A DNA stretch of 64,000 nt, taken from assembly GCA_022710975.1 (NCBI GenBank), contig JAKLGA010000006.1:62001-126000 (forward strand), given 5' to 3'. Below the pieces are notes generated by a model, which ran no database searches, was not told the DNA's origin, and saw nothing but the letters and a program-made list of their open reading frames with translations. Position 1 is the stretch's first letter, and each line of letters starts with the position of its first letter. Source of the stretch: Myxococcota bacterium. GTDB taxonomy: Bacteria > Myxococcota > B64-G9. The position numbers and the translations under genes are program-made. Of the stretch, positions 47,904-64,000 are shown in pieces.

Positions 47904-50900
47904 ATGAAGACGCGATGGTTGCGAGGGCTCCTGTGGGTGGCGCTGGGGGGAATGGCGGCGTGGGGCTGCTCGAACAGCGCCGGGCCAGGAGATGACTCTG
48001 GCATCCTGCTGTGCACGGGCGACCCGGACTGCCCCCAGGGCTTCACCTGCCTGGACGGACTGTGCACGCTGCCCGCGGACGGCGGCTGCACCATCGACGC
48101 GGACTGCCCGGACGGCCAGGTTTGCCGGCTGGGCGCGTGCGTGACCGACCAGGCGGACGGCGGGGACGGCGACGACGGGGATGGCGCCGCGGACGGCGAC
48201 GGCCCGCCTCCCGAGCCCGCGGTGGCCGTGGAGCCTGCGCTCATCGACTTCGGCAACGGCCGGGTGGGCCAGGTGGTGGAGCAGATCCTGCGCGTGCGCT
48301 CGGTAGGCGGGGCGGACCTCACGGTCTTCTCCCTCCAGATGTCGGCCGACACCAGCCCCGAGTTCGGGGCTGCGCCCCTGGGGACGGAGCTGAACGAGAT
48401 CCTGCCGCCGGGCGCGAACCTCGAGGTGCGCGTGACCTACGCGCCGCAGGATGGCAGCGTGGACTACGGCACGCTGCTCATCTCGACCAATGCCCCCTCC
48501 CAGGCGCTGATCCAGGTGCCGTTGAGCTCGTCCTACAAGGGCGTCTCGGAGATCAGCGTGGTGGAGGAGCCCGGCTCCGAGCTCGACGCGGTGCAGCAGG
48601 TGGACTTCGGCCCCGTGGCGCTGGGCGGCGCCAGCCGCCGGGTGGTGTTCATCAAGAACGCCGGGAACGGGAACGCGGTGCTGGAGATCGAGGAGGTCCG
48701 CACCAACCCCCTGGTCAGCGATCACTTCTCCCTGGAGGTGAACCCGGCCCCGCCCGCCTTCCTGAGCCCGTCGACCGGCCCGTGTGCGCTGGACGAGGAC
48801 TGCGGCGCAGGGAACCTGTGCCAGGCCGGGGTGTGCCTGGATCCGACCGGCCAGGTGCTCGGCCTGGTGAGCGTGGCCATCGACTTCGCCCCGGCCTCGG
48901 TCGGTGCGATCCAGGAGACCCTGGTGATCGCCAACGACGAGGGGGACGGGGCAGGGGACGGCGACGAGCAGGTCCGGCTGGTCGTGCTGCGCGGCGAGGG
49001 CATCCAGCCCAACCTGAGCGTGGAGCCCAACCCCATCGAGTTCGATACGCTGTTCACCGGGCAGCGGGCCGAGCTCCCGGTGACCCTGCGCAACCTCGGT
49101 GGCCAGGCCCTCACCCTGGTGGCCATCGAGCTCGTCGATGGCAGCGGGCCCTTCGCCCTGGATCTGGGCGGCCTGGCGAGCTGGACCTTGCTGCCCGGCG
49201 AGAGCGCCCAGATCCTCGCCTCCTTCGCCCCGGACGAGGCCGGCGCCCAGCAGGACATCCTCGAGGTGCGCAGCGACGATCCCGACAGCCCGGCCCGGGT
49301 GGATCTGCTCGGCCAGGCGGCGCTGCCGCCCGCGCTGGAGCTCACCCCCGAGGGGCTCGTCTTCGGCGAGGTTCAGCTCGGCCAGAGCCTGGAGCTCGTC
49401 TTCAGCGTGCGCAACGCGGGCGGGGGACCGCTGCAGGTGACCAGCCTGGAGCTCGTCACGGCGGGCTCGGAGTTCGCCCTGGTCGAGCAGGCCCTGCCCG
49501 CCCTGCAGCCCGGGGAGGCGGCCCAGGTGCACGTGGTCTACGCTCCCCTGGGCGGGATCGGCGCGGACGCGAACCTCGTGAGGGTGCGCTCGGACGACCC
49601 GGCGCGGCCCGAGGCGACCTTGCCCCTCGATGGGCTGGCCACGGATCCCGACGCGACCCTGGAGCCCCAGGCCATGGACTTCGGCGCCGTGTACCCGGGC
49701 TCGACCGCGGGGCCGCGCCTGGCGATCGTGCGCAACTCCGGGTTCGGCACGCTGCGCGTGACCAGCCTGGGGTTGGTGGGCAGCGCGGACTTCACCCTGG
49801 GCGCGGTCTCACCCGCGCTGCCGGCGGCGCTCACCTTCGGCGAGGGCGTGCAGGTCGAGGTGTTCTTCACTCCGCAGAGCGCCGGGCCGCGCAGCGCCGA
49901 GTTGACCGTGGCCACCAGCGACGTCGAGGCGTTCAGCCTGACCCTGCCCATCTCCGGCGCGGGCTCGGATTGCCCGCTCGGCTGGTGGGACGCGAACGGG
50001 GATCCCGCCGATGGCTGCGAGTACGCCTGCGAGCTGAGCGCCGGCGGCGTCGAGGAGTGCGACGGGCAGGACAACGACTGCGACGCGCAGAGCGACGAGC
50101 TGCTGGACACCCGCGTCTGCACCTGGGCCGTCCCGGGCGTCGGCACCTGCAGCGGCGAGGAGACCTGCGCCCACGAGCAGGGCTGGATCGGCTGCAGCGC
50201 GGCGGAGCCGCAGCCCGAGCTGTGCAACTCGGCCGACGACGACTGCGACACGGCCGTCGACGCGGCGGACAACAGCCTGCGCCTCTCGCCCTGTGAGCTC
50301 GACCTGGGGGTGTGCCTGGGCGCGGTCCACCGCGCCGTGCTCTGCCAGGCCGGCGCGTGGCAAGCGTGCACGGCCCTGGACTACGGGGCCAGCTACGGAC
50401 CGGAGACCTGCGACCGGCTGGACTCGGACTGCGACGGCCTCACGGACGCGGACGACCCTGACCTGCTGCCCGAGCCCTGCGCGAACCAGCTCGGCCTGTG
50501 CGGCGGCTCCGTCCACGCCCCCGCGCAGTGCTCTCCGCTCGGGGTCTGGCAGGACTGCACGGACGCCGAGTACGAGGCGCGCGACCCGCGTTTCGGGGAC
50601 GAGGTGTGCGACGGCGTGGACAACGACTGCGACGGGCAGGCCGACAGCGGCGACGCCAGCCTGACCCTGCCCCTGTGCGAGAAGCAGATCGGGCTGTGCG
50701 CCGGCGCGGCCAAGCGGCCGGGCCTGTGCTACCAGGGCGCCTGGCACGCCTGCCTGGAGGCGGACTACCAGGCCCACGACCCGCGCTACGACGACACCGA
50801 GCTGTGCGATGGGCAGGACAACGACTGCACGGGAGCGCCGGGGGCAGGGGAGGTGGACGGAGACGGGGACGGCTACCGGGCCTGCGCGGGGGACTGCGAC

Positions 50901-53900
50901 GACACCCCGGGGTCCGGCGTGGACATCCACCCGGGCGCCGTCGAGGTGTGCGACGGGATCGACAACGACTGCGATGGGTTCGTGGATGGGGAGGATCCGC
51001 AGCTCGTGCTGACCCCGTGCGAGCTCACCCTGGGGGTGTGCGCCGGCACCTTCCACCGGGCGGACCAGTGCCTGGCCGGCGGGGTGTGGGCGGCCTGCAA
51101 CGCGAGCAACTACGGGGCGGGCTACGGGGCCGAGATCTGCGACGCGGGGCTGGACAACGACTGCGACGGGCTGGTCAACGCGGGCGACCCGGGCCTGCAG
51201 CCGGCGCCGTGCGAGAACCAGGCCGGCGTGTGCAACGGAGCGTTCCACGTGCGCGCGCAGTGCCAGGTCAACGGGACCTGGCTGGCCTGCGGCGCGGCCG
51301 AGTACGAGGCCCGCGACCCGCGCTACGGGGCCGAGGAGTGCGACGGCGCCGACAACGACTGCAACAGCCTGCAGGACGAGGCCGACGCGGCGCTGGTGAT
51401 CCCGCCGTGCGAGAACCAGACCGGGCTGTGCGCGGGCGCGCTGCACCGGCCGCTGCTGTGCAACGGCGCGCTCGGCTGGAGGGCCTGCGAGGCCGCGGAC
51501 TACGAGGCCCACGACGCGGCCTACAGCGCGACCGAGCTGTGCGATGGGGTGGACAACGACTGCTCGGGGACGGTGCCGGCGAACGAGGCCGACGCGGACG
51601 GAGACGGATACCGGGTCTGCGGCGGGGACTGCAACGACAGCCCGCCGGCCGGCGCGGCCATCCACCCGGGCGCGGTCGAGACCTGCGACGGCGTCGACAA
51701 CGACTGCGACGGGTTCCTCGACGGGAACGACCCCCAGCTCGTACTGGCACCCTGCGAGTTGAGCCAGGGTGTCTGCGCCAGCAAGTTCCACCGGGCGGAC
51801 CAGTGCGGCGCGGGCGGCGTGTGGGCGGCCTGCGACGGCAGCAACTACGGCGCGAGCTACGGCGCCGAGGTCTGCGACGCGGGGCTGGACAACGACTGCG
51901 ACGGCCTGACCAACGCCGCCGATGCGAGCCTGGTGCTCGCGCCGTGCGGGAACCAGGCCGGGGTGTGCAGCGGCGCCCTGCACGCGCGGGCGCAGTGCCA
52001 GGCGAACGGCACCTGGACGGCCTGCGCCGCGGCGGACTACGAGGCCCATGACGCCCTGTACGGCGTCGAGGAGTGCGACGGCGCGGACAACGACTGCGAC
52101 GGTCAGGTCGACGGCAACGACGCCAGCCTGAGCCTGCCGCTGTGCGAGAAGCAGGGCGGGCTGTGCGCGGGCGCCGCCAAGCGTCCCGGCCTGTGCTACC
52201 AGAGCGCCTGGCACGCGTGCACGGAGGCGGACTACCAGGCCCACGATGCGCGCTACGACGACGTCGAGCTGTGCGACGGCCTGGACAACGACTGCTCGGG
52301 GACGGTGCCGGCGAACGAGGCCGACGCGGACGGGGACGGGCACCGGGTCTGCGGCGGGGACTGCAACGACAGCCCGCCGGCCGGCGCGGCCATCCACCCG
52401 GGCGCGGCGGAGCTCTGCGACAGCGTCGACAACGACTGCGACACCTACCTGGACGGCGCGGATCCGCAGCTCGTGCTGACCCCGTGCGAGCTCACCCTGG
52501 GGGTGTGCACCAGCAAGCTCCACCGGGCGGACCAGTGCGGCGCGGGCGGCGTGTGGGCGGCCTGCAACGCGAGCAACTACGGGGCGGCCTACGGCGTCGA
52601 GAGCTGCGACGCGGGGCTGGACAACGACTGCGATGGACTGACCAACGCGGGCGACCCCAGCCTGACGCTGGCGCCGTGCGAGAACCAGGCCGGGGTGTGC
52701 AACGGCACGCTGCACGCGCGGGCGCAGTGCCAGCTCAACGGGACCTGGCAGGCCTGCGTCAACGCGGACTACGAGGCCCACGATCCGCGCTTCGGTAATG
52801 AGGAGTGCGACGGCGCGGACAACAACTGCAACAGCCTGCTGGACGAGGCGGACCCGGCGCTGGTGATCCCGCCGTGCGAGAACCAGACCGGGCTGTGCGC
52901 GGGCGCGCTGCACCGGCCGCTGCTGTGCAACGGCGCGCTCGGCTGGGGGGCCTGCGAGGCCGCGGACTACGAGGCCCACGACGCGACCTACAACGCGGCG
53001 GAGCTGTGCGACGGCCTGGACAACGACTGCTCGGGGACGGTGCCGGCGAGCGAGGCCGACGCGGACGGGGACGGATACCGGGTCTGCGGCGGAGACTGCA
53101 ACGACAGCCCGCCGGTCGGCACGGCCATCCACCCGGGCGCGGCGGAGCTCTGCGACGGCGTCGACAACGACTGCGACACCTACCTGGACGGCGCGGATCC
53201 GCAGCTCGTGCTGACCCCGTGCGAGCTCACCCTGGGGGTGTGCGCCAGCACCTACCACCGGGCGGACCAGTGCGTGTCGGGCGGCTGGGCGGCCTGCAAC
53301 GCGAGCAACTACGGGGCGAGCTACGGAGTCGAGAGCTGCGACGCGGGGCTGGACAACGACTGCGACGGGTTGACCAACGCGGTCGATCCCAGCCTGACGC
53401 TGGCGCCGTGCGAGAACCAGGCCGGGGTGTGCAGCGGCGCCCTGCACGCGCGGGCGCAGTGCCAGCTCGGCGGGAGCTGGCTGTCCTGCGGCGCGGCCCA
53501 GTACGAGGCCCACGACGCCCGCTACGGGGACGAGGTGTGCGACGGCGTGGACAACAACTGCAACGCCCAGCTCGACCAGGTGGATCCGCTGCTCATCCGG
53601 CCGCTGTGCGAGAACCAGACCGGGCTGTGCGCGGGCGCGCTGCACCGGGCCTCCCTGTGCCAGGCCGGGGCGGGCTGGGCCTCCTGCGACGCGACCGACT
53701 ACGAGCTCAACGACCCGGCCTACAATGCCGCGGAGCTGTGCGATCGCGTCGACAACGACTGCTCGGGCGGACTGCCGGCGGCCGAGGTGGACGGGGACGG
53801 GGACGGCTACACGCCCTGCGAGGGCGACTGCCTGGACGGCGACATCGACGTCAACCCCGGCGAGCTGGAGGTGTGCAACTCCAAGGACGACGACTGCGAC

Positions 53901-55448
53901 GGCTTCACCGACGCGCTGGACGGCTCGCTCGAGCTCGCGCCCTGCGAGCTGCAGGCCGGCGTGTGCGCGGGCTCGGAGCACGCCCTGAACCAGTGCGTGG
54001 CCGGCGGCTGGCTGCCGTGCACGGACTCGGAGTACACCGCGCACAGCGCCTACTTCGGCGAGGAGGTGTGCGGGGACGCGGGCAGCCGAGACGAGGACTG
54101 CTCGGGCGTGACGAACGACCGCGACGCGGACGAGGACGGGTACCTGCACATCGCCTGCGGCGGGAACGACTGCAACGACGACAGCGCGGCCGCGCACCCC
54201 GGCGCCTCCGAGGTGCAGGATCTGACCGACAACGACTGCGACGGGCTGGTGGACGAGGGCGTCATCCCGGTGGGCAGCCTGATCGTGACCGAGCTGCTCC
54301 CCAACCCGGGCCTGCCCGGCGACGCCTACGGAGAGTGGTTCGAGGTGTACAACGACAGCGCCATCAGCGTGAACCTGCACTCCTGGCGCATCCGCGACGA
54401 CGGCACCAACATGTTCCAGGTGGCTGCGCCTGCGGGCCTCATCATCGCGCCAGGGCAGAGCATGGTCTTCTGCCGCAACGGCGATCCGGAGCTGAACGGT
54501 GGGGTGGTGTGCGACTACGTCTACGGCGAGGGCGGCAACGTGTTCGAGCTGGCCAACTCCGGCGGGGACGAGATCGTGTTGACCCTCGATGGTCTGATCA
54601 TCGACTGGATGAACTACTCCACCACGACCGATGGACGCTCGCGGAGCCTCGACCCGAGCGCCTACGACGACGGGGCCAACGACACCCTGGCCAACTGGTG
54701 CGTGACCCCGGCCAACGCGGCCTACCAGCTCCCGGGCGGGGACTACGGCACGCCCGGCCAGATGAACGTCCTGTGCGCGGGCTCCATCGCGCTCGCCTCC
54801 GTGTCCCCCGGGTCGGGCATCGAGCAGGGCGGCGAGACCCTGACGCTGCAGGGGACGGGCTTCACCGGCGCCACGGCGGTCAGCGTGTGCGGCGCGGCGT
54901 GCGCCTCCTTCAGCGTGGTCGACGACAACGCCATCACCTGCGTGACCGCGGCCCACGCGCCGGCGGACTGCGACGTGACGGTCACCAAGGGCCCCGCCTC
55001 CAGCACCCTCACCGCGGCCTACCGGTTCACGGGCGTGGACGGGAGCCCGGGCATCGGCTGGTGCGACCTGCAGTGGCCGCTCACCGCCACCGCCCGGGTG
55101 GGTTCGGACAGCGAGCTGGTGTTCGGCCGGGTGTGGAAGTCCGGGGTGACCGAGCCGGCGGGCGCGCCAGCGGGCATCACCGGCCAGCTCGGCTACGGCC
55201 CGCTGGGCAGCGATCCGCGCTCCAGCGTGGGCTGGCGCTGGCTGACCGCGAACTGGAACCCGTCCTGCGTGGGCTGCGGCAACAACGACGAGTTCATGCG
55301 CCAGTTCAACCTGCCGGTGACCGGCACCTGGTCGTACGTCTACCGCTTCAGCGACGACGGCGGGTACACCTACGTGTTCTGCGACTTCAACCCCGGCGCG
55401 CCGCCCTTCAGCACGGGCGAGATGGGCACCCTGACCGTGACCCCATGA
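47904..55448 (+). CDS. Giant lipoprotein: ASH-like, Cys/Asp repeats, lamin-tail, IPT domains
   Basis: A 2514-residue lipoprotein (MKTRWLRGLLWVALGGMAAW, lipobox AAWGC). The N-terminal Cys module (SGILLCTGDPDCPQGFTC) and Asp/Gly spacer are shared with the two sister lipoproteins. Residues about 105-690 are five or six ASH/choice-of-anchor-D-type Ig domains (IDFGNGRVGQVVEQILRVRS, LVFGEVQLGQSLELVFSVRN). Residues about 695-2110 are Cys-rich DNDCDG repeats alternating with PCE...GVCxGAxHxxxQC units, in a 732-735-bp higher-order pattern. Then a lamin-tail domain (about 2130-2290; LIVTELLPNPGLPGDAYGEW), an IPT/TIG domain (about 2295-2375) and a C-terminal beta domain (GWCDLQWPLTATARVG to the end). 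GGAGGTGCAGG precedes the ATG. The stop overlaps the radical SAM start (ATGA), implying coupled synthesis. Confidence 0.88.
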   Translation: MKTRWLRGLLWVALGGMAAWGCSNSAGPGDDSGILLCTGDPDCPQGFTCLDGLCTLPADGGCTIDADCPDGQVCRLGACVTDQADGGDGDDGDGAADGDGPPPEPAVAVEPALIDFGNGRVGQVVEQILRVRSVGGADLTVFSLQMSADTSPEFGAAPLGTELNEILPPGANLEVRVTYAPQDGSVDYGTLLISTNAPSQALIQVPLSSSYKGVSEISVVEEPGSELDAVQQVDFGPVALGGASRRVVFIKNAGNGNAVLEIEEVRTNPLVSDHFSLEVNPAPPAFLSPSTGPCALDEDCGAGNLCQAGVCLDPTGQVLGLVSVAIDFAPASVGAIQETLVIANDEGDGAGDGDEQVRLVVLRGEGIQPNLSVEPNPIEFDTLFTGQRAELPVTLRNLGGQALTLVAIELVDGSGPFALDLGGLASWTLLPGESAQILASFAPDEAGAQQDILEVRSDDPDSPARVDLLGQAALPPALELTPEGLVFGEVQLGQSLELVFSVRNAGGGPLQVTSLELVTAGSEFALVEQALPALQPGEAAQVHVVYAPLGGIGADANLVRVRSDDPARPEATLPLDGLATDPDATLEPQAMDFGAVYPGSTAGPRLAIVRNSGFGTLRVTSLGLVGSADFTLGAVSPALPAALTFGEGVQVEVFFTPQSAGPRSAELTVATSDVEAFSLTLPISGAGSDCPLGWWDANGDPADGCEYACELSAGGVEECDGQDNDCDAQSDELLDTRVCTWAVPGVGTCSGEETCAHEQGWIGCSAAEPQPELCNSADDDCDTAVDAADNSLRLSPCELDLGVCLGAVHRAVLCQAGAWQACTALDYGASYGPETCDRLDSDCDGLTDADDPDLLPEPCANQLGLCGGSVHAPAQCSPLGVWQDCTDAEYEARDPRFGDEVCDGVDNDCDGQADSGDASLTLPLCEKQIGLCAGAAKRPGLCYQGAWHACLEADYQAHDPRYDDTELCDGQDNDCTGAPGAGEVDGDGDGYRACAGDCDDTPGSGVDIHPGAVEVCDGIDNDCDGFVDGEDPQLVLTPCELTLGVCAGTFHRADQCLAGGVWAACNASNYGAGYGAEICDAGLDNDCDGLVNAGDPGLQPAPCENQAGVCNGAFHVRAQCQVNGTWLACGAAEYEARDPRYGAEECDGADNDCNSLQDEADAALVIPPCENQTGLCAGALHRPLLCNGALGWRACEAADYEAHDAAYSATELCDGVDNDCSGTVPANEADADGDGYRVCGGDCNDSPPAGAAIHPGAVETCDGVDNDCDGFLDGNDPQLVLAPCELSQGVCASKFHRADQCGAGGVWAACDGSNYGASYGAEVCDAGLDNDCDGLTNAADASLVLAPCGNQAGVCSGALHARAQCQANGTWTACAAADYEAHDALYGVEECDGADNDCDGQVDGNDASLSLPLCEKQGGLCAGAAKRPGLCYQSAWHACTEADYQAHDARYDDVELCDGLDNDCSGTVPANEADADGDGHRVCGGDCNDSPPAGAAIHPGAAELCDSVDNDCDTYLDGADPQLVLTPCELTLGVCTSKLHRADQCGAGGVWAACNASNYGAAYGVESCDAGLDNDCDGLTNAGDPSLTLAPCENQAGVCNGTLHARAQCQLNGTWQACVNADYEAHDPRFGNEECDGADNNCNSLLDEADPALVIPPCENQTGLCAGALHRPLLCNGALGWGACEAADYEAHDATYNAAELCDGLDNDCSGTVPASEADADGDGYRVCGGDCNDSPPVGTAIHPGAAELCDGVDNDCDTYLDGADPQLVLTPCELTLGVCASTYHRADQCVSGGWAACNASNYGASYGVESCDAGLDNDCDGLTNAVDPSLTLAPCENQAGVCSGALHARAQCQLGGSWLSCGAAQYEAHDARYGDEVCDGVDNNCNAQLDQVDPLLIRPLCENQTGLCAGALHRASLCQAGAGWASCDATDYELNDPAYNAAELCDRVDNDCSGGLPAAEVDGDGDGYTPCEGDCLDGDIDVNPGELEVCNSKDDDCDGFTDALDGSLELAPCELQAGVCAGSEHALNQCVAGGWLPCTDSEYTAHSAYFGEEVCGDAGSRDEDCSGVTNDRDADEDGYLHIACGGNDCNDDSAAAHPGASEVQDLTDNDCDGLVDEGVIPVGSLIVTELLPNPGLPGDAYGEWFEVYNDSAISVNLHSWRIRDDGTNMFQVAAPAGLIIAPGQSMVFCRNGDPELNGGVVCDYVYGEGGNVFELANSGGDEIVLTLDGLIIDWMNYSTTTDGRSRSLDPSAYDDGANDTLANWCVTPANAAYQLPGGDYGTPGQMNVLCAGSIALASVSPGSGIEQGGETLTLQGTGFTGATAVSVCGAACASFSVVDDNAITCVTAAHAPADCDVTVTKGPASSTLTAAYRFTGVDGSPGIGWCDLQWPLTATARVGSDSELVFGRVWKSGVTEPAGAPAGITGQLGYGPLGSDPRSSVGWRWLTANWNPSCVGCGNNDEFMRQFNLPVTGTWSYVYRFSDDGGYTYVFCDFNPGAPPFSTGEMGTLTVTP
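50802..53735 (+). repeat. Higher-order tandem repeat, four units of 732-735 bp
   Basis: Equivalent CTGTGCGA codons occur at 50802, 51537, 52269, 53004 and 53736, giving unit lengths of 735, 732, 735 and 732 bp. Each unit contains four sub-repeats of roughly 60 residues, in a fixed order (DNDCSG/DNDCTG, DNDCDGF or DNDCDTY, LDNDCDGL, then DNDCDG or DN(D/N)CN). Units 2-4 are very similar at DNA level over long stretches; a partial fifth unit follows to about 54050. Length differences of 3 bp keep the frame. Confidence 0.9.
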
Positions 55449-57079
55449 GCCCGCACCAGGCCGAGGAGCGACGGCGGTGGGTCCGGCTCACGCGGATCTG
55501 CAACAACCGCTGCGTGTTCTGCCACGACTGCCTGAGCCACGACGGCTCCCGGCGGCCCGTGGAGGAGCTCGAGGCGGAGCTGCGGGCCGGCCTCGCGGAG
55601 GGCGCTGCCCGGCTCATCCTGTCGGGCGGCGAGCCCACCCTCCACCCGGCCTTCCTCGAGCTGGTGGCCCGCGGCCGGGCGCTCGGCTACCGCTGGGTCC
55701 AGGTGGTCTCCAACGGGCGCATGTTCGCCTACCCGGGCTTCGCCCGGGAGGCGGCCGAGCGAGGGCTGTGCGAGGCGACCTTCTCCATCCACGGGCAGAC
55801 GCCCGGGCTGCACGACCGGCTCACCGGCGTGGCCGGCTCGTTCGCGCAGGCGCTGGCCGGCATCCACAACCTGCAGCGGGCCGGCCTGGTGGTCAACGCG
55901 GACGTGGTGTTGAACGCCTGGAACTTGCCGGTGTTGCACGAGATCATCGGCTTCTTGCTCGCGCGCGGCATCCGCGAGTTCGACCTGCTGTGGCTGGTGC
56001 CCTTCGGGCGAGCCTGGGAGCGCCGCCGGGAGCTCTTCGTGCGGCCCGAGGACGCCGCGCCGGCGCTCCGGCGGACCATCGAGCTGGCCCGGGAGGCGGG
56101 GGCGGTGGTCTGGACCAACCGGCTCCCGGCGGCGGCCCTGGAGGGGCTGGAGGAGCTCATCCAGGACCCCCACAAGCTGCTCGACGAGGTGCGCGGCCGG
56201 GCCACCGAGCTCGCGGGCTGGCTGGAGCGCGACGAGCCCATGGCGTGCCGCGATCCCGAGCGCTGTGGCGTGTGCTTCCTGGGCGGGTTCTGCGCCTCGC
56301 TCGAGCGCTGGCGCGAGCAGGTCCGGGCGGGGATGCTCCAGGGGCTGCGGCTCGCGTGGGCGCAGCGCGACGCGCCGCAGGCCAGGCGCTGGGCGGCCCG
56401 GACCCGCCGGCTGTGGCTGGCGGCGCCGTCCCGGGCGGCGGCCGCCGCCTGGCTCGCAGGCCTCGGAAGGCAGCCCGAGGAGCTCGTCCTGGAGCTCCAG
56501 GCCGGGGCGGAGAGGGAGCAGGGCGGGGAGTCCGCCGCCGCCGGGCAGCCCGGGGGGATCCGGCTCGTCCGGCTGGCCTCCTCCGACCCGCGAGTCCTCG
56601 AGGCGCTGTGGACGGCGGGGACCCCGTCCTTGGAGGTGATCCTCGACCGGTGGTCCGCGGCCTGGGTCGCAGACCAGGCCGGCGGACTCTCGCAGGGTCC
56701 GGCCCGTTTCCTCTTGTCTCTCAAACGGTTCTCGTCCCGGGAAGCCGCCCGCGAGCAGGGCTGTGACCCCCACCTGGCCCTGGCGCCCCTGGCGGGGTCT
56801 CCGATGCGGGTAGGCGACATGCCCTGGTGCGCGTCCCGGGCAGCCCAGCCGCTCGCGGAGCCCGGTTGCCTGTCCTGCGAGGCGCTGGGCCCGGACGGTG
56901 GCCTCGACCTGCCCGGGTTGGCGGAGCACTACCTGCGCGAGGAGTACGGCCTGCACGCGGCCCGCTGCGCCTCCTGCGGCCTTCGCCCACGCTGTCCGGG
57001 GATGCCCGCCCAGCACGCCCGATGGCTGGGCCTGGCGCGTCTCGTCCCGCGCCCGGCGGACGTCCAGACGTCGAATTGA
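55445..57079 (+). CDS. Radical SAM protein coupled to the giant lipoprotein
   Basis: A 544-residue radical SAM enzyme. The 4Fe-4S motif is C19-x3-C23-x2-C26 (ICNNRCVFC), with another Cys at 29; LSGGEPTLHP is the SAM-binding GGEP motif, and VSNGRMF and FSIHGQTPGLHDRLTG follow. The C-terminal part has extra Cys groups (CRDPERCGVCFLGGFC about 265-285; CLSCEALG and CASCGLRPRCPGMP at the end), consistent with SPASM-like auxiliary clusters. The ATG overlaps the lipoprotein stop (ATGA), so both are made together. Parts (SNGR, GSF..AL.GI.NL) recall HxsC-type and other peptide-modifying radical SAM proteins, but I do not assign it to HxsC. A Cys-rich neighbour protein as substrate is a hypothesis. Confidence 0.88.
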   Translation: MSPHQAEERRRWVRLTRICNNRCVFCHDCLSHDGSRRPVEELEAELRAGLAEGAARLILSGGEPTLHPAFLELVARGRALGYRWVQVVSNGRMFAYPGFAREAAERGLCEATFSIHGQTPGLHDRLTGVAGSFAQALAGIHNLQRAGLVVNADVVLNAWNLPVLHEIIGFLLARGIREFDLLWLVPFGRAWERRRELFVRPEDAAPALRRTIELAREAGAVVWTNRLPAAALEGLEELIQDPHKLLDEVRGRATELAGWLERDEPMACRDPERCGVCFLGGFCASLERWREQVRAGMLQGLRLAWAQRDAPQARRWAARTRRLWLAAPSRAAAAAWLAGLGRQPEELVLELQAGAEREQGGESAAAGQPGGIRLVRLASSDPRVLEALWTAGTPSLEVILDRWSAAWVADQAGGLSQGPARFLLSLKRFSSREAAREQGCDPHLALAPLAGSPMRVGDMPWCASRAAQPLAEPGCLSCEALGPDGGLDLPGLAEHYLREEYGLHAARCASCGLRPRCPGMPAQHARWLGLARLVPRPADVQTSN

Positions 57080-57152: not shown

Positions 57153-60100
57153 ATGAAGCTCTCGGCGCGTGGCCTGTGGCTGGCGATGGCCGTCTGCTCG
57201 CTCGTGGTGTGGGGCTGTGACGGCTCCTCGGGCCTGCCGTCCGACGGGTCGGTGATCACCTGCACCGATGACGAGGACTGCCCGGTGGATCAGGCCTGCG
57301 AGCAGGGGGTGTGCCAGCCCATCAACCCCACCTGTGGAGACGGCGGCCCCTGTCCCGACGGCGAGGTGTGCGTGGACGGCCAGTGCGTCCCCGAGACCCC
57401 GGACGGCGGCGACGGGGGGGACGGCAGCGACGGGGCGGACGACACGCCGGTGCCCGACATCGAGGTGGTCTCCCCCCTGATCTCGGGCGACACCTACCAG
57501 CTCGACTTCGGCAACGTGCTGGTGGGCATCAGCGCCAGCCAGCAGATCGTGCTGCGCAACGCCGGCGACGCCAACCTGCGCATCCTGCAGCTCAACCTCG
57601 AGATGGGCACCGACGTGGAGGACTTCAGCGTTCCCCAGGCGATCGTGGACAGCTTGCCGATGGTGATCGAGCCGGGCGGCCAGGCGGCGATCGACATCGT
57701 GTACACCGCCAGCGACGGCCTGACCGATCACGGCATCCTGGACATCATCTCCAACGATCCGGACGAGGCGCTGGTCAAGATCCACCTGCTGTCCGAGTTC
57801 AAGGGCACGGCCGAGGCCGCGGTCACGCCCGAGCTGCTCGACTTCGGCGACGTCCCGCTCGGCCAGGCGAGCGCGCCGCTCACCGCGACCCTGTCCAACA
57901 TGGGCTCGGGCAACGCCGTCCTGACGGTGTCCGACGTCCGCTTCGGGGTGCTGAACAACCCGGACTTCGGCCTGAGCCTGCGCGACATGAGCGGCGCCAC
58001 GGTCGTGCCGCCGGTGCTGCTCAACAACGGCGACGCCCTGGACGTCCAGGTGATCTACCACCCTCAGCTGCGGGAGACGGACGCGGACGAGATCGTGTTC
58101 GTGACCGACGATCCGCTGCAGAGCATGCTCGAGGTGGCCCTGGCCGGCCGCGGGGTGGTCGGGGATCTCGCCATCGCGCCCAGCCCCGTGGCCCTCGGCC
58201 GGGTGCGGGTGGGGGAGCACGGCCAGACGGAGGTGACCATCTCCAACGCCGGTGGGGCCGAGCTCCAGGTGTCAGGCATCGCGCTCGCGGCCCACAGCGG
58301 GGAGTTCAGCCTGGCGTCCACGGAGGTGGATCTGGCCGGCCTGCCCGCCAACCCGCTGACGCTCAGCCCGGGCCAGGCCGTGCACGTGACCCTCGGGTTC
58401 GACCCGGCGGACGCGGGCGACGAGACGACCCAGCTCCTGGTGGACAACTCGAGCGCCGAGCCGCAGCGCGCGGCCGCGGTGAGCGCGAGCGGCTATGTGC
58501 CGCCGGCCGTGCAGGCCGACCCCGACCCCCCGGTGCTCCAGTACGGCAACGTGCAGATCGACTTCGGTTCGGGCCAGGCGGAGACCAGCACGCTGGTGGT
58601 CGAGCTCACCAACGTGGGCGGTGAGCCGCTCCGCATCGACAGCATCCAGCGCGCCGCCAGCACCAGCATCGAGTACACTTTCAGCCCGGCCTCCATCCCG
58701 CCCATCGACATGGGGGTCACGGTGCCGCTGTCGGTGCACTTCACCCCGGCCGCCCTGGGCGCCAAGCAGGGGGCGCTCCTGGTGGACACCAACGATCCGG
58801 ACATCGCGGTGGACGGCGTGACGGGCCGGCTGCAGATCGACATGCTGGCCAACGGCATCGATCCCAACATCTTCGTCACCCCGGCCGCCAGCATCGCCTT
58901 CGGCTCGGTGTACGTGGGCCAGCAGGTGACCCGCCAGGTGGTCGTGCGCAACGCGGGCAGCGGCCCGCTGTCGGTCGACGCCATCGCGCTCAGCCCGGGC
59001 AGCTCCAACTCCTACAGCCTGGCCAACCTGCCGCAGCTCCCCATGGTCATCTCCAACGCCATGACCGAGCTCACCTTCGACGTGCTGTACGTCCCCGCCG
59101 CGGAGGGCGCCCAGGACGCGGGCGCGGTGCTGATCGATTCGTCGGACATCGGCAACCCCAGGGTGGACCTGGCCCTCACCGGCACCGGCGCGGCCTGCCC
59201 GGTCAACACCCTGGATTGCAACGACGATCCGCAGGACGGATGCGAGGTGACCTGCGTGCCCGCCGGGGCCGAGCAGTGCAACTACCGCGACGACGACTGC
59301 GACTGCGCCACGGACGAGGACTTCGATCTGGACACCGATCCCGATCACTGCGGCTCGTGCGCCAATGACTGCACCTACCTCCACGGCCTGGCCGGCTGCT
59401 CCGGCGGGCAGTGCCACCTGGCCCAGTGCGCGGCGGGCTGGGACGACTGCGATGACGACGAGGACACGGGCTGCGAGACCGACATCACCACCATCAGCGA
59501 CTGCGGCCAGTGCGATCGGGTCTGCCAGTTCGCCCACGCCGAGCCGAGCTGCCTGGGCGGGGCTTGTGTCATGGGCGACTGCGACACGTACTTCAAGGAC
59601 TGCGACGGCTTGAGCAACACTGGCTGCGAGGTGTCCTTCAACGACGACGAGCAGAACTGCGGCGACTGCAACATCCGCTGCCTGTACGCCAACGGCACGG
59701 GCATCTGCCTGGGCGGGTTCTGCCGGCTCGACACCTGCCTGCAGGACTTCGCCAACTGCGACACCCTGGAGAACACGGGCTGCGAGGCGAACCTGCTCAC
59801 CGATCCGCTGAACTGCAACGGCTGTGGCAACGACTGCCCGGACGCCGGCGGCACCCCGGTGTGCAACGACGGCACCTGCGGCGTGTCGGACTGCAACCCG
59901 GGCTGGGCGGACTGCAACGGGGACGGGACCACCTGCGAGACCAACACCGCCGCGGATCCCAACAACTGCGGCGGCTGTGGCAACCAGTGCGAGTTCGCCA
60001 ACGATCACGGGACGTTCAGCTGCGTCGGCTCCACCTGCGTGGTGAGCTCCTGCGAGGCGGGCTGGGGCAACTGCGACTCCCAGGCCCCCAACGGCTGCGA

Positions 60101-60764
60101 GACCGACGTGAGCCAGGACGCCCAGAATTGCGGCTACTGCGGCCACGTCTGCCAGCTCGATCACGCCGGCTCGTACTGCGCGGCCTCCGCCTGCCAGCTC
60201 GGGGCCTGCGACGCGGGCTTCCACAACATCGACACCAACCCGCTGAACGGCTGCGAGTGCGCCGAGGACAGCGAGGCCGACCTGTGCGCGGACGCCCTGG
60301 TCACCAACCTCGGCTCCCTGGGCGCGGGCGGCAACCTCGAGCTGACCATCACCAACAACCTGATCCCCTGGGTGGCCGGGGTGATCCAGGACGAGGACTG
60401 GTACACCTTCACCGCGCTGGACGACTTCTCCGCGGACGTGGCCGCCGGCGTCGACCACCACGATCTGCACGTCTTCTTCGAGGCCGGCAGCGGCAACCCG
60501 GGGGCCCAGTACGCCTTCAAGATCTACCGCTTCCACGGCGCCGGTCCGAACTGCAGCAACAAGCAGCTCCTGTGCGACGCGAACGGCGCCCTCGACTTCC
60601 ACCACTATGGCCAGAACCCCTGCTGGCGCGGGACCTCCAACCCGAACCAGTCCATCCGCTACTGCGGGGACGACGACTCGGCGCGCTACTGGATCCAGGT
60701 CTACCGGGTGAGCAGCCTGGTCACCTGCGAGCCCTATGTGCTGCGCGTCATCCTGGTGCCCTGA
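57153..60764 (+). CDS. Large lipoprotein with ASH-like and Cys-rich repeats
   Basis: A 1203-residue lipoprotein (MKLSARGLWLAMAVCSLVVW, lipobox VVWGC). The N-terminal module (GSVITCTDDEDCPVDQAC, then CPDGEVCVDGQC) matches those of the two other giant lipoproteins. Residues about 100-680 are five ASH/choice-of-anchor-D-like Ig domains (LDFGNVLVGISASQQIVLRN, IAFGSVYVGQQVTRQVVVRN). Residues about 688-1045 are Cys-rich repeats of about 45 residues with GCE(T/V)..., NCGxCGxxC and GxCxxxxC motifs, common in myxobacterial surface proteins. The C-terminal domain (about 1060-1203; EDWYTFTALDDFSADVAAGV) resembles a pre-peptidase/choice-of-anchor beta domain. It lies between the radical SAM gene and the Hxs operon, with its own promoter. 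Confidence 0.87.
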   Translation: MKLSARGLWLAMAVCSLVVWGCDGSSGLPSDGSVITCTDDEDCPVDQACEQGVCQPINPTCGDGGPCPDGEVCVDGQCVPETPDGGDGGDGSDGADDTPVPDIEVVSPLISGDTYQLDFGNVLVGISASQQIVLRNAGDANLRILQLNLEMGTDVEDFSVPQAIVDSLPMVIEPGGQAAIDIVYTASDGLTDHGILDIISNDPDEALVKIHLLSEFKGTAEAAVTPELLDFGDVPLGQASAPLTATLSNMGSGNAVLTVSDVRFGVLNNPDFGLSLRDMSGATVVPPVLLNNGDALDVQVIYHPQLRETDADEIVFVTDDPLQSMLEVALAGRGVVGDLAIAPSPVALGRVRVGEHGQTEVTISNAGGAELQVSGIALAAHSGEFSLASTEVDLAGLPANPLTLSPGQAVHVTLGFDPADAGDETTQLLVDNSSAEPQRAAAVSASGYVPPAVQADPDPPVLQYGNVQIDFGSGQAETSTLVVELTNVGGEPLRIDSIQRAASTSIEYTFSPASIPPIDMGVTVPLSVHFTPAALGAKQGALLVDTNDPDIAVDGVTGRLQIDMLANGIDPNIFVTPAASIAFGSVYVGQQVTRQVVVRNAGSGPLSVDAIALSPGSSNSYSLANLPQLPMVISNAMTELTFDVLYVPAAEGAQDAGAVLIDSSDIGNPRVDLALTGTGAACPVNTLDCNDDPQDGCEVTCVPAGAEQCNYRDDDCDCATDEDFDLDTDPDHCGSCANDCTYLHGLAGCSGGQCHLAQCAAGWDDCDDDEDTGCETDITTISDCGQCDRVCQFAHAEPSCLGGACVMGDCDTYFKDCDGLSNTGCEVSFNDDEQNCGDCNIRCLYANGTGICLGGFCRLDTCLQDFANCDTLENTGCEANLLTDPLNCNGCGNDCPDAGGTPVCNDGTCGVSDCNPGWADCNGDGTTCETNTAADPNNCGGCGNQCEFANDHGTFSCVGSTCVVSSCEAGWGNCDSQAPNGCETDVSQDAQNCGYCGHVCQLDHAGSYCAASACQLGACDAGFHNIDTNPLNGCECAEDSEADLCADALVTNLGSLGAGGNLELTITNNLIPWVAGVIQDEDWYTFTALDDFSADVAAGVDHHDLHVFFEAGSGNPGAQYAFKIYRFHGAGPNCSNKQLLCDANGALDFHHYGQNPCWRGTSNPNQSIRYCGDDDSARYWIQVYRVSSLVTCEPYVLRVILVP
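59214..60260 (+). repeat. GCE/NCGxCG cysteine-rich protein repeats
   Basis: Seven or so units with the order GCE, D..NCGxCG..C, G.C, C..G..DC run through this part of the lipoprotein gene, about 135-150 bp each. Unlike the array in the giant lipoprotein, these units are well diverged at the DNA level. Confidence 0.75.
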
Positions 60765-60777
60765 ACCCACCGCCGGC

Positions 60778-60807
60778 TTGACTTGCGCTGCGCGGAACGC
60801 GTAGTGT
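60778..60807 (+). promoter_or_regulatory. Promoter of the Hxs-like operon
   Basis: TTGACT (60778-60783), 18-nt spacer, TAGTGT (60802-60807). It lies 13 nt after the lipoprotein stop, so the Hxs operon has its own start near 60814. Confidence 0.65.
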
Positions 60808-60814
60808 TCCCCTG

Positions 60815-60833
60815 CGAGGTGGACGGCACCTCG
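60815..60833 (+). promoter_or_regulatory. Leader hairpin of the Hxs-like operon
   Basis: A perfect 7-bp stem, CGAGGTG/CACCTCG, around GACGG, begins almost exactly at the predicted transcription start and 26 nt before the start-codon region. There is no T-tract. It could be an mRNA-stabilising 5' hairpin or an operator. Confidence 0.45.
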
Positions 60834-60859
60834 TGGGGTTTGCCAAGGGGAAATAACAA

Positions 60860-61324
60860 ATGGAAATATCAAGAGAAACTACAAAAGATAGCATTCGGCT
60901 TGAATTGGATGAGAAGCTCTTTCCCCGTCCGGTTTCCGTCGCGGCCGCCTACCGGTTCCTGGACCGATGCTACATCCGGCTGGAGCGCGCGGGGAAGCAG
61001 CACCTGATCGTCCAGCTGAAGGGCAAGCAGAAGATCACCAAGGCGTCCCTCGAGTGCCTGGCGGAGGAGTTCCAGAACGAGCTGTTGCACCAGCTCCTCC
61101 GCCACCAGGTGGCCGAACGCACGGCTGGACTCCGGGACGCCATCGTGGGGCGGGCCCTGTTCTCGGCCGAGCCCGCGCCGACCGAGGCCGCCTCGCCTGG
61201 CGGGGACTCGGCGGGTCCAGCCGACATGGACTACCTCGACGACCCGCTGGGCATCGCTGTGCCCTGGGAGGAGAAGTATGGCGAAGGCCAGGACAAGAAC
61301 GGTGGCGGGCAAGGCCAGAGCTGA
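60860..61324 (+). CDS. hxsD: HxsD-like protein of a His-Xaa-Ser system
   Basis: A 154-residue cytosolic protein. Residues about 12-50 (IRLELDEKLFPRPVSVAAAY, then RFLDRCYIRLE) and 70-100 (LAEEFQNELLHQLLRHQVAE, then RTAGLRDAIVGRAL) follow the HxsD pattern, including the place of its LLNDYxLRE-like signature, here diverged to LLHQLLRHQ. The last 45 residues are an acidic Pro/Gly tail. HxsD proteins occur only with the HxsB/HxsC radical SAM maturases and a His-Xaa-Ser repeat peptide, and may guide the substrate. AAGGGG (60845-60850) precedes the ATG by 9 nt. The first 20 codons are strikingly A/T-rich compared with everything around. The 3' end overlaps the next gene by 47 nt. Confidence 0.75.
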   Translation: MEISRETTKDSIRLELDEKLFPRPVSVAAAYRFLDRCYIRLERAGKQHLIVQLKGKQKITKASLECLAEEFQNELLHQLLRHQVAERTAGLRDAIVGRALFSAEPAPTEAASPGGDSAGPADMDYLDDPLGIAVPWEEKYGEGQDKNGGGQGQS

Positions 61325-61658
61325 GGTCCAGGCCAGGGCCGGGACCAAGACCAAGACCAAGGCCAAGGTGACAGCCAGGAGCCGAGCCCCGGCCGGCGCG
61401 AAGCGCCCACGCGCCACGTCCTGCAAGGCGACCGGCGTGTCCAGCGCGGGCCTGGTGCTGGAGCTGGATGGGCACCTCTACCCGCGCGCCGCGGTCGATC
61501 GGGCCCGGGCCGCCTTCGCCCACCTGGCGCGGATCGAGGTGTGCCGGGTGGGTGAGCTCCTGCGGATCGAGTTCCACGAGGCCGAGCCCGAACTGGCCGG
61601 GGTCCTGCCCGACGAGTTCGCCAACTACGCGCTCGGGTGCATGACGGTGAACCCATGA
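61278..61658 (+). CDS. Second HxsD-like protein with basic histone-like N-terminus
   Basis: A 126-residue protein starting inside the previous gene, with a strong GGGAGGAG directly upstream. The first 52 residues are Lys/Arg/Ala/Thr-rich (MAKARTRTVAGKARAEVQAR) like a histone-H1 tail. The rest aligns with the upstream protein: LELD..L(F/Y)PR near LVLELDGHLYPRAAVDRARA, and L..EF.N..L at VLPDEFANYALG. It therefore looks like a truncated paralogue of HxsD lacking the second helical half. The basic tail could contact the acidic tail of its neighbour or nucleic acid; this is speculation. The stop overlaps the maturase start (ATGA), so dosage is coupled. Confidence 0.7.
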   Translation: MAKARTRTVAGKARAEVQARAGTKTKTKAKVTARSRAPAGAKRPRATSCKATGVSSAGLVLELDGHLYPRAAVDRARAAFAHLARIEVCRVGELLRIEFHEAEPELAGVLPDEFANYALGCMTVNP

Positions 61659-63166
61659 GCTTCGAGCTGCCCGAGGTCCGCAACCCGGGCCTGATGCCCT
61701 TCCGCTTCCGGCTCTTGCCGGGGGGCCGCGCGGTGGTGGTCACCGATCTGGCCGGACGCTTCGCCATCCTGAGCCGGGAGGAGTTCGGAGACTTCGTGGC
61801 GGGCACGCTGCCGGACGATCACCCGGCGGCTGCGCGGGTGAGGAACGCGGGGCTCGTGCGCTCCGCAGAGGGAGAGACCGACACCGTCGCAGCCCTGCGC
61901 CGGAGGAGCGAGCACCTGATGCGGGGGCCCGGCCTGCACATCCTGATCCTCACCCTGCGCTGCAACCAGGCCTGCGTGTACTGCCACGCGAGCCGCAAGG
62001 GGGAAGGCGCCGAGGGTGTGGACATGAGCCAGCAGACGGCGGCCCGTGTCCTGGACGTGGTGTTCGCCTCTCCCAGCCCGGATCTCACCCTCGAGTTCCA
62101 GGGTGGTGAGCCCACCCTGAACTTCGAGGTGCTGCGCTTCGTGGTGGAGGAGGCCAGCCGGCGAGCCAGCGCGAGCGGCAAGCGCGTCTTCTTCAGCCTC
62201 GTCTCCAACCTCAGCCCGCTCGACCAGGAGAAGATCGACTTCCTCGTGGACCACGGGGTGATGGTGTGCTCCTCCATCGATGGGCCCGCGGCCCTGCACG
62301 ACAGGAACCGCCGCTGGAGCTCCAGGAGCGCCCACCAGGCCACGCTCGCTCGCATCGAGGAGTTCCGCAGGGCGTACGCCAAGCGTGGCCTCGACCCGGA
62401 GCTGGCGTTCGTGAACCTGCTGGCCACCGTCTCGCGCGCCTCCCTCGCTCAGCCCGAGGCGCTCGTCGACGAGTACGTGCGCCTGGGCAGCAAGGTCGTC
62501 CACCTGCGGTCGCTCAACCCCTTCGGCATGGGCAAGAAGATCTGGGCCAAGGAAGGCTACACGGCCGAGGAGTACCTGGCGTTCTACCGGCGGGCCTTCG
62601 ATCACATCGTGAAGCTGAACCGCGCCGGGGTCGAGATCATGGAGAAGATCGCCGCGCTCGCGCTCACCCGCATTCTGACCGACGACGATCCGAATTACAT
62701 GGACCTGCGCTCGCCGTGCGGGGCTGGCATCGGCCAGCTGGCCTACGGATACGATGGCAAGGTCTACACCTGCGACGAGGGCCGCATGGTGGCCGCCATG
62801 GGCGATCCCATGTTCTGCATCGGCGATGTGCAGGCGGGTGGTTACGCGGACATCATCAGGCACCCCGGGGTGCGCTCCCTGTGCGTGGCCTCCTGCCTGG
62901 AGTGCTTGCCCGGCTGCTCGGATTGCGCCTACGCCCCGTACTGCGGGGTCTGCCCAGTGTACAACTACGTCCAGGAAGGGGACCTGGTGGCCCGCTGGCC
63001 GCAGAACGATCGCTGCCGAATCCAGATGGGAATCGCGGATCTGCTCTTCGAACGCCTCCAGGAGCCGGGCCTCGAGCCGCTGCTTCGCCGCTGGACCATC
63101 AACCGGGATCGTTCCTCGGTCTACAGGCGAATGATGCCCTTGACAACTCCGGTAACCTGCCCGTAG
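61655..63166 (+). CDS. hxsB: HxsB-like radical SAM/SPASM maturase
   Basis: A 503-residue radical SAM enzyme. The N-terminal 90 residues (FRFRLLPGGRAVVVTDLAGR) have the HxsB-type start. The 4Fe-4S motif is C103-x3-C107-x2-C110 (RCNQACVYC), followed by DMSQQTA, LEFQGGEPTLNFE, SSIDGPAALHDRNR, and MDLRSPCGAGIGQLAYGYDG then VYTCDEGRM, all positions conserved in HxsB. The C-terminal SPASM region holds about ten Cys (CVASCLECLPGCSDCAYAPY, CGVCPVYNY) for auxiliary Fe-S clusters. Such enzymes install radical-derived bonds in peptide substrates; the nearby Ser-His-Gly repeat protein is the obvious target. The ATG overlaps the previous stop. A companion HxsC is not adjacent. Confidence 0.88.
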   Translation: MSFELPEVRNPGLMPFRFRLLPGGRAVVVTDLAGRFAILSREEFGDFVAGTLPDDHPAAARVRNAGLVRSAEGETDTVAALRRRSEHLMRGPGLHILILTLRCNQACVYCHASRKGEGAEGVDMSQQTAARVLDVVFASPSPDLTLEFQGGEPTLNFEVLRFVVEEASRRASASGKRVFFSLVSNLSPLDQEKIDFLVDHGVMVCSSIDGPAALHDRNRRWSSRSAHQATLARIEEFRRAYAKRGLDPELAFVNLLATVSRASLAQPEALVDEYVRLGSKVVHLRSLNPFGMGKKIWAKEGYTAEEYLAFYRRAFDHIVKLNRAGVEIMEKIAALALTRILTDDDPNYMDLRSPCGAGIGQLAYGYDGKVYTCDEGRMVAAMGDPMFCIGDVQAGGYADIIRHPGVRSLCVASCLECLPGCSDCAYAPYCGVCPVYNYVQEGDLVARWPQNDRCRIQMGIADLLFERLQEPGLEPLLRRWTINRDRSSVYRRMMPLTTPVTCP

Positions 63167-63198
63167 GATAGGAAAAGTCTTCCCGGGAGGCCGCCGCC

Positions 63199-63597
63199 AT
63201 GCCGAAGGACAAGCTCCCTAAGTTGGACAAGGATCCATCCGCTTTCCTCACGGCGGAGGAGCGCAAGCTCACGCGGCGCGACGTCCTCTCGACGTCGGCC
63301 ACGGCGCTGCTGCTCGCGGCGGGAACGAGTCTGGTGGCGGGCAAGGCTGCCGCCAGCACGGCTGGCGCACAGCCCGTCGGGGCAGGCAAGGCGCCCGCAG
63401 AGGGCGGCGCTGCCGCGCTGAAGGGGGTCGACCTGTCCCACTGCTCGCACGGCTCCCACGGCTCCCACGGCTCGCACGGCTCCCACGGCTCCCACGGCTC
63501 CCACGGCTCGCACGGCTCCCACGGCTCGCACGGCTCCCACGGCTCGCACGGTTCGCACGGCTCCCACGGCTCGCACGGCTCTCACGGCTCGTGGTGA
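63199..63597 (+). CDS. hxsA: Ser-His-Gly repeat precursor (HxsA-like) with predicted Tat signal
   Basis: A 132-residue putative substrate of the maturase, 32 nt downstream of it, with GGGAGG (63185-63190) 8 nt before ATG. The N-terminus has a twin-arginine-type signal: LTRRDVLS (RR at 26-27), a moderately hydrophobic Gly-containing core (ATALLLAAGTSLVAG) and an Ala-rich cleavage region. A linker (AGAQPVGAGKAPAEGGAAAL) leads to LSHC followed by 16 Ser-His-Gly units and a final Ser-Trp. Read as His-Gly-Ser, the array fits the His-Xaa-Ser repeats of HxsA. The single Cys before the array and the terminal Trp are possible crosslink or processing sites. Alternatively it is a His-rich metal-binding peptide. 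Confidence 0.8.
   Translation: MPKDKLPKLDKDPSAFLTAEERKLTRRDVLSTSATALLLAAGTSLVAGKAAASTAGAQPVGAGKAPAEGGAAALKGVDLSHCSHGSHGSHGSHGSHGSHGSHGSHGSHGSHGSHGSHGSHGSHGSHGSHGSW
63445..63588 (+). repeat. 9-bp tandem repeat, 16 units of Ser-His-Gly
   Basis: Sixteen uninterrupted 9-bp units (TCNCACGGN) encode SHG. The Ser codon alternates TCG and TCC (one TCT, late), and one Gly codon is GGT. The synonymous variation shows selection on the peptide rather than a very recent slippage burst. Confidence 0.95.
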
Positions 63598-63603
63598 GCC
63601 CCT

Positions 63604-63999
63604 TCAGCGCTGCCGCCCGCAGCGCTCCATGACCAGAATCCAGAGGGTGCAGCCGAGTTCCTGCGCGTCGAACTTCTCGAGCGTTCGCAGGCCGGCCTCT
63701 CGGCCCCAGGCCTCGACCTCAGCCACGTCCAGGTCGTGGAGGTGTTCGAAGGGCAGCCCTGGATGGTCCTCCACCGCCTGCGTCTTCTGAGCGCTGCGGA
63801 CCAGCCCGAAGAGCACGTCCTCGGCGAGCAGCAGACGCCCGCCGTGGGGCGCCAGCATGCTGGCCATCCGGGTGATGGCCCTGGAGGGGGAGCGCAGGTG
63901 GTTGAGGCTGCGCAACGACAGGACCCAGTCGAAGGGCCTCCCGCTCCAGCGCCAGGCCTCGAAGCGAGTCCGGCGTCGGGAGAACCCGGCCAGCCCGGG
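63604..63999 (-). CDS. SAM-dependent methyltransferase, C-terminal part
   Basis: A minus-strand frame enters from the right edge and ends at 63604, 6 nt from the end of the precursor gene (tail to tail). The 131 visible residues contain a post-motif-II pattern of class I methyltransferases (FDWVLSLRSLNHLRSPSRAI, then MLAPHGGRLLLAED), with the later strand LGCTLWILVMERCG. The SAM-binding motif I lies outside the window. The substrate is unknown. Being divergent in direction it is not part of the Hxs operon, although a function on the peptide cannot be excluded. Confidence 0.75.
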   Translation of the reverse strand, partial: PGLAGFSRRRTRFEAWRWSGRPFDWVLSLRSLNHLRSPSRAITRMASMLAPHGGRLLLAEDVLFGLVRSAQKTQAVEDHPGLPFEHLHDLDVAEVEAWGREAGLRTLEKFDAQELGCTLWILVMERCGRQR

Positions 64000-64000
64000 C

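Follow-up and report, generated by a model that had tools for sequence, protein, structure and literature searches.

What kind of system is a His-Xaa-Ser locus that encodes two HxsD-like proteins and no HxsC? The question is raised by the end of a 64,000-nucleotide (nt) stretch from a Myxococcota bacterium (GCA_022710975.1, contig JAKLGA010000006.1, positions 62,001-126,000 of the forward strand; hereafter the window), in which two hxsD-type genes are followed by hxsB, encoding a radical S-adenosylmethionine (SAM) maturase, and by a precursor gene with tandem Ser-His-Gly (SHG) units. The canonical His-Xaa-Ser system reportedly consists of HxsA-D, as described by Haft and Basu in 2011. Such systems have for years been recognised from genome sequences, but no function, product or mechanism of His-Xaa-Ser systems was found in the literature searched. 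In window coordinates, the genes and the array are:

60860..61324, + strand: hxsD, 154 amino acids (aa); TIGR03976 59.1 bits (cut-off 50); C-terminal DPLGIxxPWE motif conserved
61278..61658, + strand: second HxsD-like gene (HxsD_rel), 126 aa; NF038315 53.6 bits (cut-off 41)
61655..63166, + strand: hxsB, radical-SAM maturase, 503 aa; TIGR03978 488 bits (cut-off 370)
63199..63597, + strand: hxsA4, precursor, 132 aa; NF038313 97.2 bits (cut-off 55), with orthologues
63445..63588, + strand: 16 tandem Ser-His-Gly codon triplets, differing by synonymous changes only

All four proteins score above NCBIfam cut-offs, and a third-codon-position G+C of 81-90% across hxsD, HxsD_rel, hxsB and hxsA4 supports coding in each. 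The cassette described in an earlier note on this DNA (two HxsD-like genes, HxsB and a precursor with 16 SHG units) is thus real, and the profile search identifies its maturase as HxsB. The coordinates also bear out the overlaps given for the first three genes, 47 nt between hxsD and HxsD_rel and 4 nt between HxsD_rel and hxsB; hxsB and hxsA4 are separated by a gap of 32 nt. The note had presented the locus as a variant Hxs system, but NCBIfam already holds models for HxsA4 (NF038313), HxsC4 (NF038332) and an 'HxsD-like protein' (NF038315), and since HxsA4, HxsD_rel, HxsD and HxsB all exceed their cut-offs here, the subtype has already been named by the NCBIfam curators. By its protein families, the locus is a well-conserved HxsA4-type His-Xaa-Ser cassette, predicted to be of the ribosomally synthesised and post-translationally modified peptide (RiPP) kind, without HxsC and HxsC4. 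What appears to be new, given that the HxsA4 type itself has a name, is a cassette that lacks both of these enzymes and is accompanied by other radical-SAM families.

The best match to HxsC (TIGR03977) in the whole genome reaches 93 bits (cut-off 268) and the best match to HxsC4 (NF038332) 156 bits (cut-off 500), and the precursor scores 10 bits against HxsA (TIGR03979, cut-off 122). In HxsB, the CxxxCxxC motif is present as CNQACVYC (PF04055 44 bits) and is accompanied by a Cys-rich, SPASM-like C-terminal part, which rests on the TIGR03978 match (Pfam SPASM E 0.23). The next-best models over much of HxsB are those of PapB-type ranthipeptide and nif11-type maturases (114-116 bits), which are also radical-SAM/SPASM enzymes, but their cut-offs of 340 and 519 bits lie far above these matches. 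Their substrates supply Cys for thioethers, whereas the core here has one Cys. The canonical system shares with this locus the HxsB and HxsD families and an L-A-x-H-x-S-H-like entry into the repeat.

HxsC and HxsD_rel in the Myxococcota

We surveyed 195 Myxococcota genomes and compared 17 genomes with the variant, from seven families, with the 178 others. HxsD_rel was identified in 16 of the 195 genomes; HxsC, the search for which covered two relatives besides the 41 genomes matching HxsB, was above cut-off in 16. No genome of the survey carries both, and this holds inside family f13 as well, which contains the variant in genus g35 and the canonical system in several other genera. Among the 31 genomes with HxsB above cut-off, 15 have HxsD_rel, 15 have HxsC and none has both (Fisher 6e-8). 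The remaining one (G167) might have been counted as lacking HxsD_rel, a possibility that we rejected because a diverged copy sits directly before hxsB. Canonical loci of the survey have HxsC, a single HxsD and no HxsD_rel, and their precursors have a brief mixed H-(R/S/Y)-S segment and then a Gly-rich tail, unlike the SHG array described here. The variant thus separates the parts of the system: both kinds have HxsB and HxsD, HxsC and HxsD_rel are mutually exclusive, and a definite set of radical-SAM enzymes (below) accompanies the variant. The genes worth co-expressing are thereby reduced to a few, and two natural designs can be compared cleanly.

Of the 17 variant genomes, 16 have HxsD; G050, which is 79% complete, gave no match. 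Its absence upstream of hxsB in families f18 and f19 does not reflect loss, as hxsD is located elsewhere in those genomes. A second HxsB-like group scoring below cut-off (309-352 bits) was detected in G101, G115, G121, G124, G133-G137 and G052 (C8:162677-164044); except for G052, these genomes have neither HxsC above cut-off nor HxsD_rel.

HxsD and HxsD_rel are homologous by profile comparison (hhalign 88%, E 3e-6), and AlphaFold2 models built from only five sequences each share a beta-alpha-beta-beta-alpha core with a predicted local distance difference test score (pLDDT) above 90 and disordered ends. The basic stretch of HxsD_rel, earlier described as a tail, is N-terminal. No PDB structure matched the models at E 0.001 or better, and the 50 matches listed include no PqqD-like entry, so that no fold match speaks for a RiPP recognition element (PqqD-like winged helix) in either protein; a weak likeness of HxsD to the L/K dimerisation subunits of RNA polymerase (E 4e-3) is not significant. 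In families f11 and f17, hxsD, hxsD_rel and hxsA4 are kept together while hxsB lies elsewhere with a further radical-SAM gene (rSAM-D, below), a grouping that fits a role of both small proteins with the substrate. The earlier note had suggested that HxsD_rel may replace HxsC or present the substrate; of the two, the second is the more plausible.

The SHG array and its promoter

HxsA4 consists of a leader with a twin-arginine translocation (Tat)-like RR and hydrophobic segment, followed by HC(SHG)16SW and the stop codon. The 16 units and the lone Cys before them had been read correctly, and the array ends in Ser-Trp-stop. Its DNA contains four unit types, and because these differ only synonymously it is the peptide that is kept, and not merely a fresh DNA satellite. 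Across 17 orthologous arrays from the seven families, with 9-58 units where the array is complete, the precursor follows a near-constant frame, H-C-S-H-(G/A)-(S-H-G)n-S-W-stop, despite quite different codons. Gly of the SHG units is replaced by Ala only, and the C-terminal Trp is present in 17 of 17 arrays. Where the position before the array is covered, it is Cys with two exceptions, V in G163 and G in the second copy of G055; the array piece of G005 starts inside the array and does not cover it. Tandem repeats change length easily, as the range among relatives illustrates, and the array could in principle be a low-complexity repeat expanded by slippage beside orphan enzymes, a degenerate remnant. 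We regard this as scarcely credible given the synonymous differences, a peptide frame and terminal Trp maintained in seven families with different codons, the intact enzyme genes and motifs, and orthologous arrays in which frame-breaking changes were not seen.

The Tat-like RR and hydrophobic segment occurs in precursors of family f9 and of the family of this genome (f1). In the orthologue comparison it is absent from precursors of f11, f13-g35 and f17, and f18 and f19 have RG. The description of the precursor as Tat-type therefore holds for the leader of this locus but not for the family as a whole, in which the segment is lineage-specific and not a defining feature. In G055, two tandem hxsA4 genes (C104:65350-66744) encode 58 and 34 units, the second without Cys before the array. 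Contigs of draft assemblies often end at or close to hxsA4 (G003, G004, G005 and G006, in G005 inside the SHG array), so that hxsA4 may be under-reported in metagenome-assembled genomes.

One promoter had been proposed for all four genes. Two promoter-like sites were identified:

63140..63169, + strand: promoter-like site of hxsA4, TTGACA-N18-TAGGAT, 10/12 matches; 1 found, 0.1 expected in shuffles
60778..60807, + strand: weak promoter-like site before hxsD, TTGACT-N18-TAGTGT, 8/12 matches; below the standard scan threshold

The stronger site lies directly before hxsA4, which makes a single promoter doubtful. Each of the five f1 loci examined (this one, G002, G003, G004 and G008) has a TTGAC(A/T)-N18-TA site upstream of hxsA4, including G002, in which nitrogenase-like genes separate hxsB from hxsA4. 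These sites suggest that hxsA4 is probably transcribed from its own promoter. TTGACA-N17-type sites also occur in the region before hxsD in loci of the same family.

Radical-SAM companions and the proposed pathway

The absence of an adjacent HxsC, claimed earlier, holds for TIGR03977, but radical-SAM genes lie on both sides of the cassette (55445-57079 on the + strand; 3' end at 63604 on the - strand). With G000 for the genome of the window and C26 for its contig, the companions are:

55445..57079, + strand: rSAM-A, 544 aa, CNNRCVFC, PF04055 65 bits; companion of the variant cassette
63604..64000, - strand, continuing to G000:C26:127592: 3' part (methyltransferase domain) of rSAM-B; PF04055 68 bits, Methyltransf_23 39 bits
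G000:C26:158104-159045: rSAM-D, 32 kb beyond hxsA4

All 17 variant genomes have rSAM-A, as does one of the 178 others (G001, a relative of 70% completeness with a contig that breaks off within rSAM-B), and rSAM-D likewise occurs in all 17 and in one other (G127, at 33% identity), each with p about 1e-21, uncorrected for relatedness. rSAM-B was identified in 14 of the 17 and elsewhere in G001 only. Its end lies 7 nt from hxsA4, and it adjoins hxsA4 in six relatives that carry both on one contig (G002, G003, G004, G005, G008 and G165); rSAM-D adjoins hxsB in G055 and G163. Since variant relatives always carry at least two further radical-SAM enzymes, the pathway is probably larger than it looked. 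This co-occurrence, in counts inflated by common descent, suggests one pathway, and the cassette and its companions probably form a multi-radical-SAM system.

None of the companions could be equated with HxsC. The best NCBIfam models for rSAM-A are HxsC4 (93 bits, cut-off 500) and HxsC (90.5 bits, cut-off 268), which makes it a member of neither. In trees, rSAM-A, B, C, D and E each form a single clade and none is identified as HxsC; orthology of rSAM-D with HxsC was rejected, as the long branch of HxsC does not group with rSAM-D in particular. The full-length HxsC4-like rSAM-G (C26:136176-137111, 119 bits) forms its own clade, leaving its assignment to HxsC4 unsupported. True HxsC4 (575-589 bits), perhaps a defining member of HxsA4-type loci, was found directly after hxsA4 in the f13-g35 genomes G067, G068 and G070. 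These loci share the order hxsD - hxsD_rel - hxsB - hxsA4 with the present one and differ in that rSAM-B here adjoins hxsA4 instead.

The reading that we favour, with moderate confidence, is an HxsA4-type cassette in which HxsB, HxsD and HxsD_rel, together with extra radical-SAM enzymes, modify the SHG peptide. HxsD and HxsD_rel would jointly hold the precursor, perhaps as a heterodimer, and offer it to HxsB, which would use the SAM-derived 5'-deoxyadenosyl radical to modify the Ser-His-Gly units one by one. The step of canonical HxsC would be done by an extra radical-SAM enzyme, for which rSAM-D is best placed, or would not be needed. With its own promoter, hxsA4 may supply substrate in excess of enzyme, and lineages with a Tat-like leader would export the modified peptide folded. 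The product would most likely be a His-rich polymer that binds metal or a cofactor. Should the companions share this peptide as their substrate, the RiPP pathway would be unusually rich in radical-SAM enzymes. Several points weigh against this reading. Modification, product and interactions are deduced from genes; in this genome 32 kb separate rSAM-D from hxsA4, and rSAM-D is not specifically sister to HxsC, so that the idea of its taking over from HxsC derives from co-occurrence, in counts that shared descent inflates; and relatives in other families have true HxsC4 beside hxsA4, against a best match of 156 bits here.

Alternatively, HxsB, HxsD, HxsD_rel and HxsA4 could suffice, with HxsD_rel in the place of HxsC and the radical-SAM genes belonging to a separate pathway in the same genomes. 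The perfect exclusivity of HxsC and HxsD_rel would agree with this, as would the tight overlapping unit that the four genes form in f1 and f13-g35 and the position of rSAM-D, often tens of kilobases away or on another contig. Yet HxsD_rel is a short HxsD homologue in which no radical-SAM motif was detected and which could not supply HxsC chemistry, the distribution of the radical-SAM companions follows that of the variant in seven families, and f13-g35 has true HxsC4 right after hxsA4. We consider such a self-contained system rather unlikely, and HxsD_rel is probably not a replacement for HxsC.

Nitrogenase-like and other neighbouring genes

A NifH-like protein (PF00142, 265 bits) and component-1 family proteins (PF00148) are encoded 25-35 kb beyond hxsA4 in the genome of the window, and a second set was located in G002:

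G000:C26:151188-158099 and G002:C102:101306-105832: nitrogenase-like NifH and component-1-like genes

The cassette could accordingly be one arm of a larger pathway, in which NifH-, NifD- and NifK-like proteins would act on a cofactor that the SHG peptide makes or carries, by reducing or loading it. In G002, hxsB and hxsA4 are separated by the NifH-like and two component-1-like genes; in G008 and G165 they are about 13 kb or less from the hxs genes and in G000 and G006 26-35 kb, and the NifH-like gene adjoins rSAM-D in G000, G004, G005 and G006. At 44% identity or more, such genes are present in 11 of the 17 variant genomes as opposed to 2 of the 178 others. At the same threshold none was found in the variant genomes of f9 and f13-g35, in part 97-98% complete, and in f11, f17 and f19 the genes are on other contigs. 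They are thus not essential to the variant; we rejected them as a core of the cassette and take them as an apparent association, and such a nitrogenase-linked arm seems quite improbable. Equally speculative, and much less probable than the favoured multi-enzyme modification of the SHG peptide, is a single conserved pathway that uses the peptide as a scaffold on which to build a cofactor or metallocluster. It would comprise, besides the peptide, HxsB, both HxsD-type proteins, three or more additional radical-SAM enzymes and, for several lineages, also a nitrogenase-like HDK complex. If true, it would be the first RiPP linked to a nitrogenase-like reductase. A literature search on nitrogenase-like proteins, radical-SAM enzymes and Myxococcota returned PMC11423573 as its only match, which deals with isethionate use in Rhodobacter.

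Between rSAM-A and hxsD lies one further gene:

57153..60764, + strand: predicted lipoprotein or surface protein, 1203 aa, with HYDIN/ASH-type Ig-like domains (Pfam/NCBIfam)

A close homologue occupies the same place in G002, G004 and G005; its membership of the system is uncertain. A large surface-type protein of 2435 aa (window 48141-55448) resembles it. From 1 kb past the window, about a dozen radical-SAM genes were detected in 33 kb (G000:C26:126954-159576), several of them B12-binding or most similar to HxsC4; the stretch also holds a GlmU-like and a NodU-like gene.

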